Below, piece by piece: positions 18,873 through 23,792 of a DNA stretch of 64,000 bases; positions within the stretch are counted from its first letter, which is position 1, and each line of letters starts with the position of its first letter. The stretch lies in the NCBI RefSeq assembly GCF_003990045.1, contig NZ_RZGZ01000002.1:1364001-1428000 (forward strand). The letters run 5' to 3'. The translations under genes and the position numbers were made by a program. The notes below the pieces were generated by a model. That model searched no databases. It had not been told where the DNA came from and was given only the letters and a program-made list of their open reading frames with translations. The DNA is from Labedella endophytica. GTDB taxonomy: Bacteria > Actinomycetota > Actinomycetes > Actinomycetales > Microbacteriaceae.

Positions 18873-19868
18873 CTACACGGAGGCGGCGTGCGCAGCCAAT
18901 CGGTCGAAGAGCGCGTCGAGCTCGGGGTCGACCTGCTGGAGCTCTGGGTGGGTGTCGTAGTGGGCCAGGATCCGGCGAGCACCCTCGTCGAAGGTGATGG
19001 TCGTGCGGAACGCCGGCGACAACTCACGCACCCTCGTCGCGTCGAACACGACCGAGTGGGTCCTGTCGCCCAGCAGACCGGGGCCGAGGTCGGGCGCTGC
19101 CGCCGCGATCGTGTCACTCGCGACGTGGACGAGGTCGGGGGCGTCGACTCCCGCGGCGTCGGCGAGCCAGCGGTAGATCTGATCCCATGTGGGTGCATGG
19201 GAACCGGTGATCGTGAACGCCTCGCCGATCGCCGCGGGGTTGCCGAGGAGCCCCGTGAAGCCGACCGCGAAATCGTCGCTGTGGGTGAGCGTCCAGAGGC
19301 TGGATCCGTCGCCGTGCACGATGACGGGTCGTCCGGCACGCATCCGCGCGATGTCGGTCCAGCCGCCGAGGGTCGGCAGCAGGGTGTCGTCATAGGTGTG
19401 CGACGGGCGCACGATGGTGACGGGCAGCCCGCGGTCGCGGTGGGCCGCGACCAGCAGATCTTCGCACGCGATCTTGTCGCGCGAATACTGCCAGAACGGG
19501 TTCCGCAGCGGAGTGGACTCGGTGATCGGCAGGCGACGCGGCGGCTTCTCGTAGGCCGAGGCGGAGCTGATGAAGATGTACTGCCCGGCTCGCTCGCCGA
19601 CCGTCGCGAGGACCGTCTCGACGTGCGCGGGCACGAAGGAGAGGAAGTCGGCCACGACGTCGTACGGGCGCTCTCCGACGACGGCGGAGACAGCATCCGC
19701 GTCTCGGACGTCGGCGCGGAGCTCGCGCACACCCTCGGGAAGAGGGCGAGCGCTGCGCCCCCGGTTCAGGACCGACACCTCGTGCCCGGCGGCCACCGCC
19801 GCGCGGACGCACGCGGTACTGATCACGCCGGAACCACCGATGAACAGGATGCGTCGTCGCAGAGTCAT
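18873..19868 (-). CDS. NAD-dependent epimerase/dehydratase
   Basis: A 331-residue short-chain-type (extended SDR) protein. The N-terminal nucleotide motif is FIGGSGVIS. The catalytic region shows FISSASAYEKPP and a YSRDK motif (YxxxK). An extended C-terminal substrate domain follows. The family contains UDP-sugar epimerases, mRNA-binding-like plant homologues and isoflavone-reductase-like enzymes; the substrate cannot be named. It is convergent with the sugar cluster and divergent from the heliorhodopsin-like gene, 76 nt away. It is probably monocistronic. Confidence 0.87.
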   Translation of the reverse strand: MTLRRRILFIGGSGVISTACVRAAVAAGHEVSVLNRGRSARPLPEGVRELRADVRDADAVSAVVGERPYDVVADFLSFVPAHVETVLATVGERAGQYIFISSASAYEKPPRRLPITESTPLRNPFWQYSRDKIACEDLLVAAHRDRGLPVTIVRPSHTYDDTLLPTLGGWTDIARMRAGRPVIVHGDGSSLWTLTHSDDFAVGFTGLLGNPAAIGEAFTITGSHAPTWDQIYRWLADAAGVDAPDLVHVASDTIAAAAPDLGPGLLGDRTHSVVFDATRVRELSPAFRTTITFDEGARRILAHYDTHPELQQVDPELDALFDRLAAHAASV

Positions 19869-19944
19869 GCGTCGACCCTAGTCGCGCCAGGCACCACGGG
19901 ACAGGGGCCGCCGGAAAGGCCGAGGCGAGCGATAACGTCGGAGC

Positions 19945-20643
19945 ATGGCTCCGACATCCTCGCGCACCGCGAACCGTCGGGCGAGCTTCTGCTATGCGGC
20001 ACAGGCCGTGGCGCTCGCGGTCGTTCTCATCATCACGACACGCACCTCCGCCCTCCCGGTCGAGGCGAACTTTCGCGACGGCACCCGGCTCCTCACCTCA
20101 CCGATCGGGACGGTCGACCTCGGCTGGGCTCTCGTCGCTGTTCTGCTCGGCGGCGCCGCGACACACGCCCTGGCTGCGGTGTCCGCCACGCACCCGCACG
20201 CCGCGCGGCCCGGCGTCCTCGTCATGGCGGGGTGGTCGCAAGGTCTCGGCATCGTCGTCTTCCTGGTCGCACAGTCGAACGGCATAGTGGATGCCGCGGC
20301 ACTCGTTCCCCTCTTCGCGCTGAGCGCAGGCGCCGTGTGCCTCCTCGCCGTGGACGACGGTTCGGCGACCGGATGGCGCCGGCCCGCCGCGTGGGCCGCC
20401 GTGATCGGAATCGTGCCGTGGGGCGTGATCGCGTTCGCACAGATCGGGGTGACGATCACCCTCGGTTCACCGCCGCTCGGTGTGCGGGTCGTCACGCTCG
20501 CGGCCCTTGCCGTGGCCGCGCTGAGTTGGTGGATCGCCTGGCGCCGCCCGCGCGCGGCGCGACCGACCGACACCGCCATCATGACGGTAGCGGTATCGGT
20601 TCTCGCGTGGGCGCTCGTGGCGCTGAGCGCTCCTGACGCGTGA
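19945..20643 (+). CDS. Heliorhodopsin-like seven-helix protein lacking the retinal lysine
   Basis: A 232-residue membrane protein with seven hydrophobic helices (about 13-32, 57-80, 91-110, 114-136, 148-170, 179-200, 209-229). By eye it aligns with heliorhodopsin 48C12 as recalled: ANR near the N terminus, His74 for His80, LVAQSNGIVDAAAL for LIAQICGIADIVAL, IGIVPW for AGIVPW, and AVSVLAW for AKSALAW in helix 7. In that alignment the Schiff-base Lys241 is Val217 (GTA) and the counterion Glu107 is Gly96 (GGG). Both losses imply it does not bind retinal. The frame is intact, so it is not an obvious pseudogene. The ATG at 19945 follows CGGAG very closely; a purine-rich GAGGCGAG lies further upstream. 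It is divergent from the epimerase gene. Function is unknown. Confidence 0.75.
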   Translation: MAPTSSRTANRRASFCYAAQAVALAVVLIITTRTSALPVEANFRDGTRLLTSPIGTVDLGWALVAVLLGGAATHALAAVSATHPHAARPGVLVMAGWSQGLGIVVFLVAQSNGIVDAAALVPLFALSAGAVCLLAVDDGSATGWRRPAAWAAVIGIVPWGVIAFAQIGVTITLGSPPLGVRVVTLAALAVAALSWWIAWRRPRAARPTDTAIMTVAVSVLAWALVALSAPDA

Positions 20644-20693
20644 ACCCACGCGGCGTCCCCAGCGATCCCGATGGCAGGCCGGCCGTGACGGGA

Positions 20694-20732
20694 AAGAACA
20701 AACCCCCGGCAGGCTTCTGCCTGACGAGGGTT
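20694..20732 (-). terminator. Terminator of tRNA-Ser(GCU)
   Basis: On the minus strand a 14-bp stem with one mismatch (AACCCTCGTCAGGC / GCCTGCCGGGGGTT, loop AGAA) is followed by TGTTCTTT, a classical intrinsic terminator. It lies 27 nt downstream of the tRNA. Confidence 0.85.
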
Positions 20733-20758
20733 CCCTCGCGATCGAGGTGGAACATCGG

Positions 20759-20847
20759 CGGAGACGGCGAGATTTGAACTCGCGGTCCCCATAAGGGGAC
20801 TCCACCTTAGCAGGGTGGTGCACTAGGCCGGACTATGCGACGTCTCC
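20759..20847 (-). tRNA. tRNA-Ser (GCU anticodon)
   Basis: An 89-nt class II tRNA. The acceptor pairs GGAGACG with CGTCTCC. The anticodon stem-loop is CCACC-CTGCTAA-GGTGG with anticodon GCT. A long variable arm and the T arm with GTTCAAATC follow. The 3' bases after the discriminator are CCG, so CCA is added after transcription. It lies downstream of the LCP gene pair. Confidence 0.97.
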
Positions 20848-20930: not shown

Positions 20931-22229
20931 TCAGTTCTTGACGACGCAGCTCTCCTGCGCGGCCGACTGGCCGACGAGGCCCGAGATCACACCGTCGCCG
21001 GGAGGCGTCGTCGCGGTGTCGTCGGGCGTCTCGCCGTCGGCGGGCGGGGCCGTCGCGGGATCCGCGGGCTCCTCGATCTCCGCGGGCTCCTCGGGTGGCG
21101 CGGACTCCTCGGGCGTCGTGTCCTCCACGCCCACGCGGCGCACGTCCGGATCGGACGAGAACGACGCGTCTGCCTTGATGGCGGCCATGAGCTGATCGGC
21201 CGTCTCGGTGCTCGGCACCACGCGGTTCGGGTCGTTCGGGGACTCGCCCACCGGGTACTGCACGAGCTGGATGTTGTCGAGGCCGAGGTTCCGCACCGTC
21301 AGCGCCATCGAGATCATGGTGTTCACGTTGGCGAGGTTGCTCGAGAGCGAGACGCTCTCCGCTGCGACCTTCGCGATGCCGAAGAGCTTCGAGGGATCTC
21401 CGAGGGTTCCGTCACTTTTGAGCTTCTTCACGAGCGACGACATGTACATCTGCTGGAGGGCGATGCGCGACAGGTCGCTGCCGTCACCGACTGCCTTGCG
21501 CGTGCGGAGGAAGGCGAGCGCGTCCTGCCCCTGCACCGTGCTGATGCCCTCGGGGAGGTCGAGCCCGGAATTGCGGTCCGTGATCGGTTCCTGGAGGCAG
21601 ACCTCCACGCCGCCGATCGCGTTGGTGAGCTGCACGACGGAGCCGAAGGTGAACTGCGCGGCGTAGTCGATGTCGATGTCGGTGAGCTCCTCGACGGTGG
21701 CGACGGCGCACGCCAGCCCGCCCTTATTCCCGCCCTTCGGGAACGAGGTGTTGATCATCGCGGCGTACTCGTATCCGCGCGTCTCACCCGTCTCCGGATC
21801 GGTGCATTCGGGGATCGGGATGACGAGGTCGCGGGGGAAGCTCACGACGACAGCACTCTGGTGGTCGTCGGCCACATGCACGAGGAGGTTCACGTCGTTG
21901 AGCGCGACATCGCGTTGGCCGTACAGCGAGGTGTCCTGGCCCGAGTCGTTGTCCGCGCCGATGACGAGCATGTCGAAGCCGCCCTCGAACTCCCCGATCC
22001 CCAGATGAGGCGGGTCGGTCGGCTCCTCGCCTCCCGAGATGTCGACGGAGTTGTCGGAGATCCCGGAGGTGATGTCCCAGAACGCGTACGTGGCTATGGA
22101 CGCCCCGCTCACGAGCACGACGGCGAGCGAGACGGCGATGACGCGGAGGATGGCGGCGAACGGTCCGTTCCGTCGTCCGCGCACGTGTCGTGCGGCGGGG
22201 ATCCGCGAGGGGGATGTCGAACGGGCCAT
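20931..22229 (-). CDS. LytR-CpsA-Psr (LCP) family glycopolymer ligase
   Basis: A 432-residue membrane-anchored enzyme that moves undecaprenyl-linked glycopolymers onto peptidoglycan. A basic N terminus and one membrane helix (about 28-50) precede the LCP domain, with GFDMLVIGADN, the arginine-containing VVSFPRDLVIPIP and ALAFLRTRKAVGDGSDLSRIALQQ. The C-terminal tail is rich in Pro, Glu and Thr and ends in CVVKN. The ATG at 22229 has no strong ribosome site and is 32 nt after the stop of the paralogue, so translation may depend on coupling. The pair probably arose by tandem duplication. Confidence 0.93.
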   Translation of the reverse strand: MARSTSPSRIPAARHVRGRRNGPFAAILRVIAVSLAVVLVSGASIATYAFWDITSGISDNSVDISGGEEPTDPPHLGIGEFEGGFDMLVIGADNDSGQDTSLYGQRDVALNDVNLLVHVADDHQSAVVVSFPRDLVIPIPECTDPETGETRGYEYAAMINTSFPKGGNKGGLACAVATVEELTDIDIDYAAQFTFGSVVQLTNAIGGVEVCLQEPITDRNSGLDLPEGISTVQGQDALAFLRTRKAVGDGSDLSRIALQQMYMSSLVKKLKSDGTLGDPSKLFGIAKVAAESVSLSSNLANVNTMISMALTVRNLGLDNIQLVQYPVGESPNDPNRVVPSTETADQLMAAIKADASFSSDPDVRRVGVEDTTPEESAPPEEPAEIEEPADPATAPPADGETPDDTATTPPGDGVISGLVGQSAAQESCVVKN

Positions 22230-22261
22230 TCGTCGATTTTAGGGGGTGACCGGCGGAAAGC

Positions 22262-23563
22262 TCAGCCGTTGCCCTTGGAGCACGTGTAGTCGCCCGCGGT
22301 CTGGCCCTCGATCGAGCTCGGCAACTCCACCGCTTCGTCGCCCCCGGCGGTCGCCGGCGGAGTGGTCTCGGCCCCGCCATCCTCCGGCGGCGTCGTCTCC
22401 TCGGGCGGCGCCGTCTCCTCGGGCGCGGGCGTCTCGCCCGCCGCGGGGGCGTTCGGGTCCTCGACGGACCCCTCCCCGGTCGTTCCCGTGAGGGTCAGCG
22501 GACGGTCCGCCTTGATCGCGTCGAAGAGCTGGGTGGCGGCGTCGGTGAGCGGGAGCACTCCCTGCTGTCCCCCGCTCGAGCCGTAGGCGTTCGGGTACTG
22601 GACGAAGGAGATCTGCTCGAGGGGGATGTCCTTCATCGCCATGGCGATCGACACCATCGTGTTGATGTTCTGGAGACTCGTGGAGAGCTGCATGTTGCTC
22701 GCGGCGGCCTTCGCGATCCCGAAGAGTTTCGTGGGGTCGGAGAGGGTCTCCGAGCTCTGCAGGGTGCGCGCGAGGGACGAGAGGAAGACCTGCTGGTTGC
22801 TGATGCGGCCGAGGTCCGACCCGTCGCCCACGCCGTGACGGGTGCGGAGGAACTGGAGCGCGTCCTCGCCCTGGAGGTTGTGGGTGCCGGCGTCGAGGTA
22901 CGTCTGGGTGTAGTCGTCCGAGATCGGCTCGGCGACGCACACGTCCACGCCGCCGACGGCGTTCGAGAGGGCGATCACGCCGTTGAACTGCACCTCAGCG
23001 GCGAACGGGATGTCGAGTCCCGTGAGCGCCTCCACCGTGAGGACGGTGCAGGCGAGGCCGCCGTAGGAGAGCGTCGTATTGATCTTCTGGGACGACATCG
23101 CGTTGTACGTTCCCGACCCGTCCACTTTCGGGCACTCGGGGATCGGGACGAACAGGTCGCGGGGGAACGAGACGACGGAGGCGCTCGAGTGGTCCTCGGA
23201 GATGTGGAGGAGCATCGTGACGTCGTTCAAGACGCCCGTCTCCTTGTCCGGGTCGCCGTACGCGTCGCCCTGTCCCTGTCGACTGTCGCTCCCCACGAGG
23301 AGGAGGTTCACCCCGCCCTCGATCGCGTCGATGTTGGGGACCGACCCGTCCTGGCCCGCGAGGGTCACGGCCGGCTTCACGCTCGACGCGACGTCCCACA
23401 GCGCGTACGCCGCCACGGCCCCGCCGCTCACGAGCACCACGGCGAGGGCGCCGGAGACGACCTTGAGCGCCGTCACGACCGCGCTGCGACCGCGGCGTCG
23501 CGCGTGCCGGATGATCGTGCGGTCGGTGGCGACGCGTCGGGACGACCGGGGGCTTTCGCTCAC
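22262..23563 (-). CDS. LytR-CpsA-Psr (LCP) family glycopolymer ligase
   Basis: A 433-residue paralogue of the gene below it. The order is the same: basic N terminus (RRRGRSAVVTALK), one membrane helix, then the LCP domain with GVNLLLVGSDSR, VVSFPRDLFVPIPEC and ALQFLRTRHGVGDGSDLGRISNQQ. A Pro/Glu/Thr-rich tail ends in YTCSKGNG. I chose the GTG at 23563, which has GGGAGAGG 8 nt upstream; the frame stays open to 23749 but runs into the tRNA gene. Both paralogues keep the conserved Arg and Asp residues, so both should be active, possibly with different glycopolymers or acceptors. Confidence 0.92.
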   Translation of the reverse strand: MSESPRSSRRVATDRTIIRHARRRGRSAVVTALKVVSGALAVVLVSGGAVAAYALWDVASSVKPAVTLAGQDGSVPNIDAIEGGVNLLLVGSDSRQGQGDAYGDPDKETGVLNDVTMLLHISEDHSSASVVSFPRDLFVPIPECPKVDGSGTYNAMSSQKINTTLSYGGLACTVLTVEALTGLDIPFAAEVQFNGVIALSNAVGGVDVCVAEPISDDYTQTYLDAGTHNLQGEDALQFLRTRHGVGDGSDLGRISNQQVFLSSLARTLQSSETLSDPTKLFGIAKAAASNMQLSTSLQNINTMVSIAMAMKDIPLEQISFVQYPNAYGSSGGQQGVLPLTDAATQLFDAIKADRPLTLTGTTGEGSVEDPNAPAAGETPAPEETAPPEETTPPEDGGAETTPPATAGGDEAVELPSSIEGQTAGDYTCSKGNG

Positions 23564-23704
23564 AGGGGTGCCTCTCCCATCGCGCAGATGCGCGGCTCGG
23601 ATTCCGGGATGCGTCGGAACGGAGCAGTAGTGCACCGGACCGAGGTCGTGCTGATGGAGCGGGTGCCTCGCGGTGCTCGCACACCCTCCATCAGAGGCGC
23701 TCCC

Positions 23705-23792
23705 TGGCGGAGGGCGTGGGATTCGAACCCACGAGACATTTCTGCCCACCAGTTTTCAAGACTGGCTCCATCGGCCGCTCGGACAGCCCTCC
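23705..23792 (-). tRNA. tRNA-Ser (UGA anticodon)
   Basis: An 88-nt class II tRNA with encoded CCA. The acceptor pairs GGAGGGC with GCCCTCC. The anticodon stem-loop is CCAGT-CTTGAAA-ACTGG, anticodon TGA. The T arm contains GGTTCGAATCC. It lies 141 nt upstream of the LCP pair on the same strand. Confidence 0.97.

Follow-up and report, generated by a model that had tools for sequence, protein, structure and literature searches.

We found that the open reading frame at positions 19945-20643 (+) of the window, the 64,000-nucleotide stretch of DNA analysed here, encodes a diverged heliorhodopsin relative of 232 aa that has neither the helix-7 lysine nor the helix-3 glutamate counterion of retinal-binding heliorhodopsins (HeR), which are replaced by Val217 and Gly96. 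On balance we lean towards regarding it as a retinal-free, light-independent regulator or scaffold of HeR fold, from a clade that gave up retinal and was seen only in Microbacteriaceae among the samples searched; the regulator or scaffold role of these Lys-less proteins is our best guess. The frame is open throughout its 232 codons from an ATG start, with a GC content by codon position of 0.716/0.595/0.841. None of the 232 residues is a lysine, so an internal Schiff base is impossible under any alignment. The window protein would very likely bind no retinal and would probably work independently of light.

Taken alone, the window protein had heliorhodopsin as its best family but scored below the cut-offs (15.4/26.7 bits in Pfam, 18.4/100 in NCBIfam), and the three sequences that phmmer listed from PDB are heliorhodopsins with E of only 1.2-1.5; a single sequence therefore cannot prove HeR identity. 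We then used a profile of the window protein and 33 relatives, which listed six distinct PDB sequences up to E 10. All six were heliorhodopsins (E 7.7e-37 to 1.9e-15; 48C12, E 8.5e-37), and no unrelated seven-helix family matched better. In agreement with this, hhalign of Lys-less against 14 canonical sequences gave a probability of 99.9 (E 7.7e-36, 242 columns). At E <= 0.001, 31 of 34 clade members matched NF038020 and 30 matched PF18761, the window protein being among those that did not, and no other family was listed for the 34 in the Pfam or NCBIfam libraries. PF18761 tells the two kinds apart: it scored full-length canonical HeRs of the family's genomes at 277-326 bits (a canonical match cut by a contig end reached 129) and Lys-less ones at 23-132, and at E <= 0.001 it misses 4 of the 31 Lys-less genes, that of the window included. 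Judged by these profiles and by the residue alignment, the window protein is a diverged heliorhodopsin by descent, similar across nearly its whole length. The homology had been proposed by a sequence-only reading from the motifs LVAQ..GI.D..AL, GIVPW and AxSxLAW, all of which are present.

To place the protein among its relatives, we searched 398 Microbacteriaceae genomes with it and obtained matches at 92 places in 82 genomes. Seventy places were read: 31 genomes each contributed a single Lys-less gene, and the remaining 39 places hold canonical genes with the helix-7 lysine. For the 22 unread places, PF18761 scores of 281-323 bits are like those of canonical HeRs. At least 31 of the 398 genomes thus carry a Lys-less gene, a minimum because the search used one sequence. 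Ten of these 31 genomes carry a canonical HeR as well, with the two genes at separate places. A separate scan added five named records, from Agromyces tardus and four Microbacterium, four of them Lys-less. The fifth, from Microbacterium schleiferi FXH-192 (L035:7710-8264), is frameshifted before helix 7, through either pseudogenization or a sequencing error.

In a 140-sequence maximum-likelihood tree (LG+F+G4), the 35 Lys-less sequences formed a monophyletic clade with a support of 100, a grouping that the sequence-only reading had proposed to look for. L035, in which helix 7 is unreadable, was excluded from both alignment and tree, L018 from the alignment only, and L101, L133-L135 and L138-L140 (fragments, bad extractions or non-HeR) from the tree. 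The stem of the clade measures 1.01. The nearest group consists of five Lys-bearing HeRs of other classes (support 77), not the family's own HeR, and attraction is possible in this placement because the stem is so long. L017 branches first, with a support of 97 for the other 34 members, and the window protein pairs with L031 of Agromyces tardus (support 86). Mean depth is 2.27 in the Lys-less clade versus 0.43 in the family's canonical HeRs, and the window protein has the longest terminal branch of the clade, at 1.87 substitutions per site.

Beyond the family, a clade profile matched 26 of 396 genomes sampled from the order and 107 of 396 sampled from the phylum, of which 24 and 106, respectively, lie outside the family. 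The outside-family matches amount to 134 loci at 133 places, L101 and L254 being the same gene, and all of them were read. The helix-7 Lys motif was found at 127 places, two of them by a looser pattern; the other six were three cut or interrupted HeRs with no readable helix 7 and three sequences that are non-HeR or too short. These order and phylum samples yielded no full-length Lys-less HeR from outside Microbacteriaceae, and no viral or plasmid relatives were found. As far as the samples reach, the clade is restricted to Microbacteriaceae.

For residue comparison, we aligned the 35 Lys-less sequences with 39 Lys-bearing HeRs of Microbacteriaceae and 66 from outside the family, counting 48C12 residue numbers from the PDB profile alignment. 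All 105 canonical sequences have Lys241, and none of the 35 Lys-less ones does. In the window protein, the alignment equates His74 (20164..20166, +) with His80, Gly96 (20230..20232, +) with Glu107 and Val217 (20593..20595, +) with the retinal-binding Lys241, exactly as the sequence-only reading had it; no lysine falls at the Schiff-base position. The loss of lysine is more general, since 25 of the 35 Lys-less proteins have none anywhere, against a mean of 5.3 in canonical ones. Where both genes share a genome (ten cases), lysines number 2-9 in the canonical protein and 0 or 1 in its Lys-less companion, a contrast within one genome which indicates that base composition does not by itself account for the loss.

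The loss of the counterion, in contrast, is true of the window protein and not of the clade. The Glu107 position holds Glu in 24 and Asp in 4 of the 35 sequences, with Ala in 6 and Gly only in the window protein. The His80 position is Arg in 25 of 35, and His is kept in the window protein and L017. Arg80 goes together with an acid at 107 in 25 sequences; three have the acid only, seven have neither and none has Arg only (Fisher 1.8e-5, not a clean probability, as the sequences are related). The acid was lost in apparently three lineages, all without Arg80: the window protein (P0001), L007/L014/L019 and L037/L043/L056. According to PMC9726877, the Schiff base, Glu107 and His80 belong to a single hydrogen-bond network, and M-state simulations show a salt bridge between His80 and Glu107, which makes an Arg80-Glu107 pair geometrically reasonable. 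An Arg at the His80 position may perhaps replace the Lys-Glu pair in most of the clade. L017 (L017:1450-2166) has an Arg at the Schiff-base position itself and keeps the His80 and Glu107 equivalents; as the first branch, it is a possible intermediate.

The two residues that the sequence-only reading took to be lost from an otherwise intact frame are indeed gone, but further positions have changed with them. PMC9529153 likens Tyr106, Phe204 and Phe207 of AbHeR to Trp86, Trp182 and Tyr185 of bacteriorhodopsin. From their spacing, we equate this pocket trio with Tyr116, Phe214 and Phe217 of the canonical reference sequence L039 and with Tyr108, Phe206 and Phe209 of 48C12. All three show a conservation of 1.0 in the canonical set. 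Among the Lys-less proteins, the commonest residues at the Tyr108 position are Phe (9), Leu (7), Tyr (6), Val (4) and Pro (4), and those at the Phe206 position are Ala, in 20 proteins, then Ser in 9, Thr in 3 and Val and Ile in 1 each. At the Phe209 position Phe is kept in 9 of 35, followed by Glu (7), Val (6), Ala (3) and Trp (3). Met115, presumably also a pocket position of HeR, is invariant in the 105 canonical sequences and is replaced by Thr in 22, Val in 8 and other residues among the 35. New conserved residues appeared elsewhere, with Asn112, Gly160, Ala163, Thr184 and Leu188 common to 35 of 35 Lys-less proteins, whereas Gly113, Pro158 and Trp159 are shared with canonical HeR. Thus, Asn112-Gly113 (20278..20283, +) is invariant in the clade while only its Gly is canonical, Asn not being conserved there, and the invariant helix-5 motif Val157-Pro-Trp-Gly160 (20413..20424, +) ends in a Gly that is not conserved in canonical HeR. 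The alignment indicates that constraint in the Lys-less clade is shifted from helix 7 to helices 3-6.

We also asked whether the host could supply retinal. In the Labedella endophytica genome, BCD, RPE65, type-1 rhodopsin and canonical HeR were each searched for without a match. Since PF01036 at E <= 0.001 has no match in the whole genome, the window protein is not a type-1 rhodopsin without the lysine (Rh-noK). Three Lycopene_cycl matches extend no further than the first 32-46 positions out of 380, one of them scoring 23.7 versus a cut-off of 23.4 bits, and we took them as chance matches to an FAD site. Retinal supply was not found in the host via BCD or RPE65; uptake or another enzyme is possible. 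Among the 31 Lys-less genomes, 20 have BCD over the cut-off and 26 a type-1 rhodopsin, and five have neither of these nor a canonical HeR (G000, G281, G153 and G004, 98-100% complete, and G316, 81%). Retinal-poor hosts were considered as a general cause of the clade and rejected, because with BCD in 20 of 31 genomes the host's lack of retinal cannot explain it. The clade can live without retinal, yet it is not tied to retinal absence. Genomes with only canonical HeR (33 chosen from 51) mostly have no BCD (4 over the cut-off), though 24 of the 33 have a type-1 rhodopsin.

Sequence divergence pointed to continued selection, a point that the sequence-only reading had proposed to check. Ten Lys-less pairs gave dN/dS of 0.17-0.62, all below 1 (two pairs share a member, and one has dS 1.07), and three canonical pairs gave 0.03-0.12; selection on the clade looks purifying but weaker than on canonical HeR. 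The window protein and L031, its nearest relative in the tree, gave dN/dS 0.55, which decides little because dS is 1.06, close to saturation. The other 34 members agree completely at 12 positions; of these, the window protein keeps 10 and departs at two, Ser111 (Leu) and Phe124 (Tyr), whereas each other member keeps all positions of its own leave-one-out invariant set. Its leave-one-out agreement at conserved columns is 28/36, not the clade's lowest; both the acid at 107 and the RW-motif Trp are gone from the protein.

Charge distribution would fit the inverted topology of HeR, with the N-terminus in the cytoplasm. Arg and Lys number 10 on the N/BC/DE/FG side of the window protein versus 2 on the other side, and the inner excess is shared by all 35 Lys-less and all 105 canonical sequences, with loop limits taken from a low-confidence model. 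Two AlphaFold2 models, for which the window protein and four relatives served as a common input of five sequences, had pLDDT of 56.6 and 50.0. The former, of the window protein, has seven helices (5-34, 59-81, 89-111, 116-137, 145-172, 178-200 and 207-228). The helix 1-2 loop, which in heliorhodopsins is long and structured with two beta strands, spans 35-58 there and is strand-free; the model of L031 shows two short strands in it, and confidence is low in both models. Foldseek with the pLDDT-56.6 model gave 384 matches, none at E <= 0.001; the top rows were GPCRs and assorted helical proteins, with a bacteriorhodopsin at rank 17, and given the poor model we let this search weigh neither for nor against the fold.

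At the locus itself, the gene lies between a divergent NAD-dependent epimerase/dehydratase gene (18873..19868, -) and tRNA-Ser(GCT) (20757..20847, -). It is absent from 3 of 3 congeners. Two of them (G108 and G033) have the same flanks, epimerase gene and tRNA-Ser, about 87 bases apart, compared with about 850 bases in the window, so that the missing segment is 19898..20755; in the third (G165) the epimerase gene is not adjacent to the tRNA. The presence/absence difference is a single gene beside the 3' end of tRNA-Ser(GCT), which may have arisen either by gain or by loss.

The regulator or scaffold reading, the one we lean towards, supposes that an inverted seven-helix membrane protein keeps the partner-binding role of HeR and would act, constitutively or in response to an ion, pH or a ligand, on another protein. 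In most of the clade, Glu107 is probably neutralised by the Arg at the His80 position in place of the Lys; both charges are gone from the window protein, for which a purely structural or partner-binding role would be likeliest. Differing neighbours between genera count against this reading, as do the frequency of BCD in the clade at large (20 of 31 genomes), the low confidence of the fold models and the long branch, the two invariant departures and the absence from three congeners of the window copy. A wider proposal, possible but well short of probable in our estimate, is that the whole clade moved from light to another input and forms a retinal-free receptor or regulator. The Lys-Glu pair would first have become Arg-Glu at the same place, as still seen in L017; the Arg-Glu pair would then have moved between helices 2 and 3 (25/35 members), and the emptied pocket would have gained small residues and the invariant polar Asn112 and Thr184. 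If this were true, the core function of HeR would be partner regulation, with no need for light. The main rival, which we consider unlikely though worth serious attention, holds that the window copy is a relict of the Lys-less clade no longer under selection. It would account for the longest terminal branch (1.87), the departure at 2 of 12 otherwise invariant positions, where no other member departs at any, the absence from 3/3 congeners with flanks intact in two, and the lost acid and RW-motif Trp; its Microbacterium schleiferi relative is moreover frameshifted as deposited. However, 232 codons have stayed open with a GC3 of 0.841, 10 of the 12 invariant positions are kept and the 28/36 agreement is not the lowest, while the dN/dS to L031 bears little on the matter.

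The remaining explanations retain less weight. A dark subunit that pairs with and tunes a retinal-bearing rhodopsin, an idea put forward for type-1 Rh-noK in PMC10308929, is improbable: canonical HeR in 10 and type-1 rhodopsin in 26 of the 31 genomes would provide partners, but the window host and four more Lys-less genomes have neither, and in the ten genomes with both HeR genes the two lie at separate places. We regard it as about equally improbable that retinal or another polyene is bound non-covalently and light still sensed, for the aromatic pocket positions are replaced clade-wide and the host has no BCD or RPE65 match, even though BCD occurs in 20 of 31 Lys-less genomes and the helix-5 VPW motif and helix-3/4 region are strongly conserved. 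The idea that the protein belongs to an unrelated seven-helix family, resembling HeR by chance, is almost certainly wrong. Its own sub-cut-off scores and the Foldseek search with a poor model would allow it, but the PDB profile matched HeR only and 30 (PF18761) or 31 (NF038020) of 34 members match HeR families with no other family listed.

Compared with canonical HeR (PF18761, NF038020; 48C12 6su3/6uh3; TaHeR 6is6), the window protein shares nearly full-length homology and the same charge pattern. It differs in having no Lys241 and no counterion, and its clade in the replaced aromatic pocket, the new invariants and faster evolution. Other lineages have likewise kept the rhodopsin fold and lost the retinal lysine, such as Rh-noK (betaproteobacteria, Guillardia theta, fungal ORPs) and FArhodopsins, but the Rh-noK described in PMC10308929 and PMC7714340, which report six of them expressed in G. 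theta, are type-1, whereas the present clade consists of heliorhodopsins. Gluopsins, Lys-less animal opsins (PMC9368030), also lost the retinal lysine within a rhodopsin lineage; they are type-2, for which PMC9601134 describes no detectable sequence similarity to microbial rhodopsins. We found no description of Lys-less heliorhodopsins in the open-access literature. About 600 Rh-noK are counted in PMC7714340 among 5,558 rhodopsin genes, HeRs included, and lists of this sort may therefore contain individual Lys-less HeRs; the sequence set of PMC9601134 was limited to proteins with the helix-7 Lys. These paralogues would have kept fold and orientation under selection and dropped the pigment, some of them in genomes with no detected retinal pathway, and may separate the light-dependent from the light-independent part of HeR function. 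To our knowledge, little is established about what heliorhodopsins do in their native cells.

Candidate partners were sought among the neighbouring genes. A simple gene caller located the clade gene at 26 loci, the other nine of the 35 being set aside, and by inspection of these 26 no neighbour family was seen to recur across many genera. In 3 of 4 genomes of genus g76 (L169, L171 and L177), three consecutive same-strand genes include the Lys-less HeR; in L171 the other two encode an ABC ATPase and an ABC-2 permease, and the trios of L169 and L177 were equated with that of L171 by BLAST clusters. Canonical HeRs are described as regulating glutamine synthetase (PMC9529153) and an ABC transporter (PMC11109279), and the g76 gene adjoins ABC genes. 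SDR or epimerase genes lie near several clade members, though such genes are common, and we treat both the ABC trio and the SDR/epimerase neighbours as weak leads. Beyond the tRNA, the window carries a gene (20931..22229, -) present in all three congeners that we take, from the look of its sequence, to be of LytR-CpsA-Psr (LCP) type. The region 20931-23749 (-) holds two such putative LCP-type genes in tandem, with tBLASTn matches in all three congeners.
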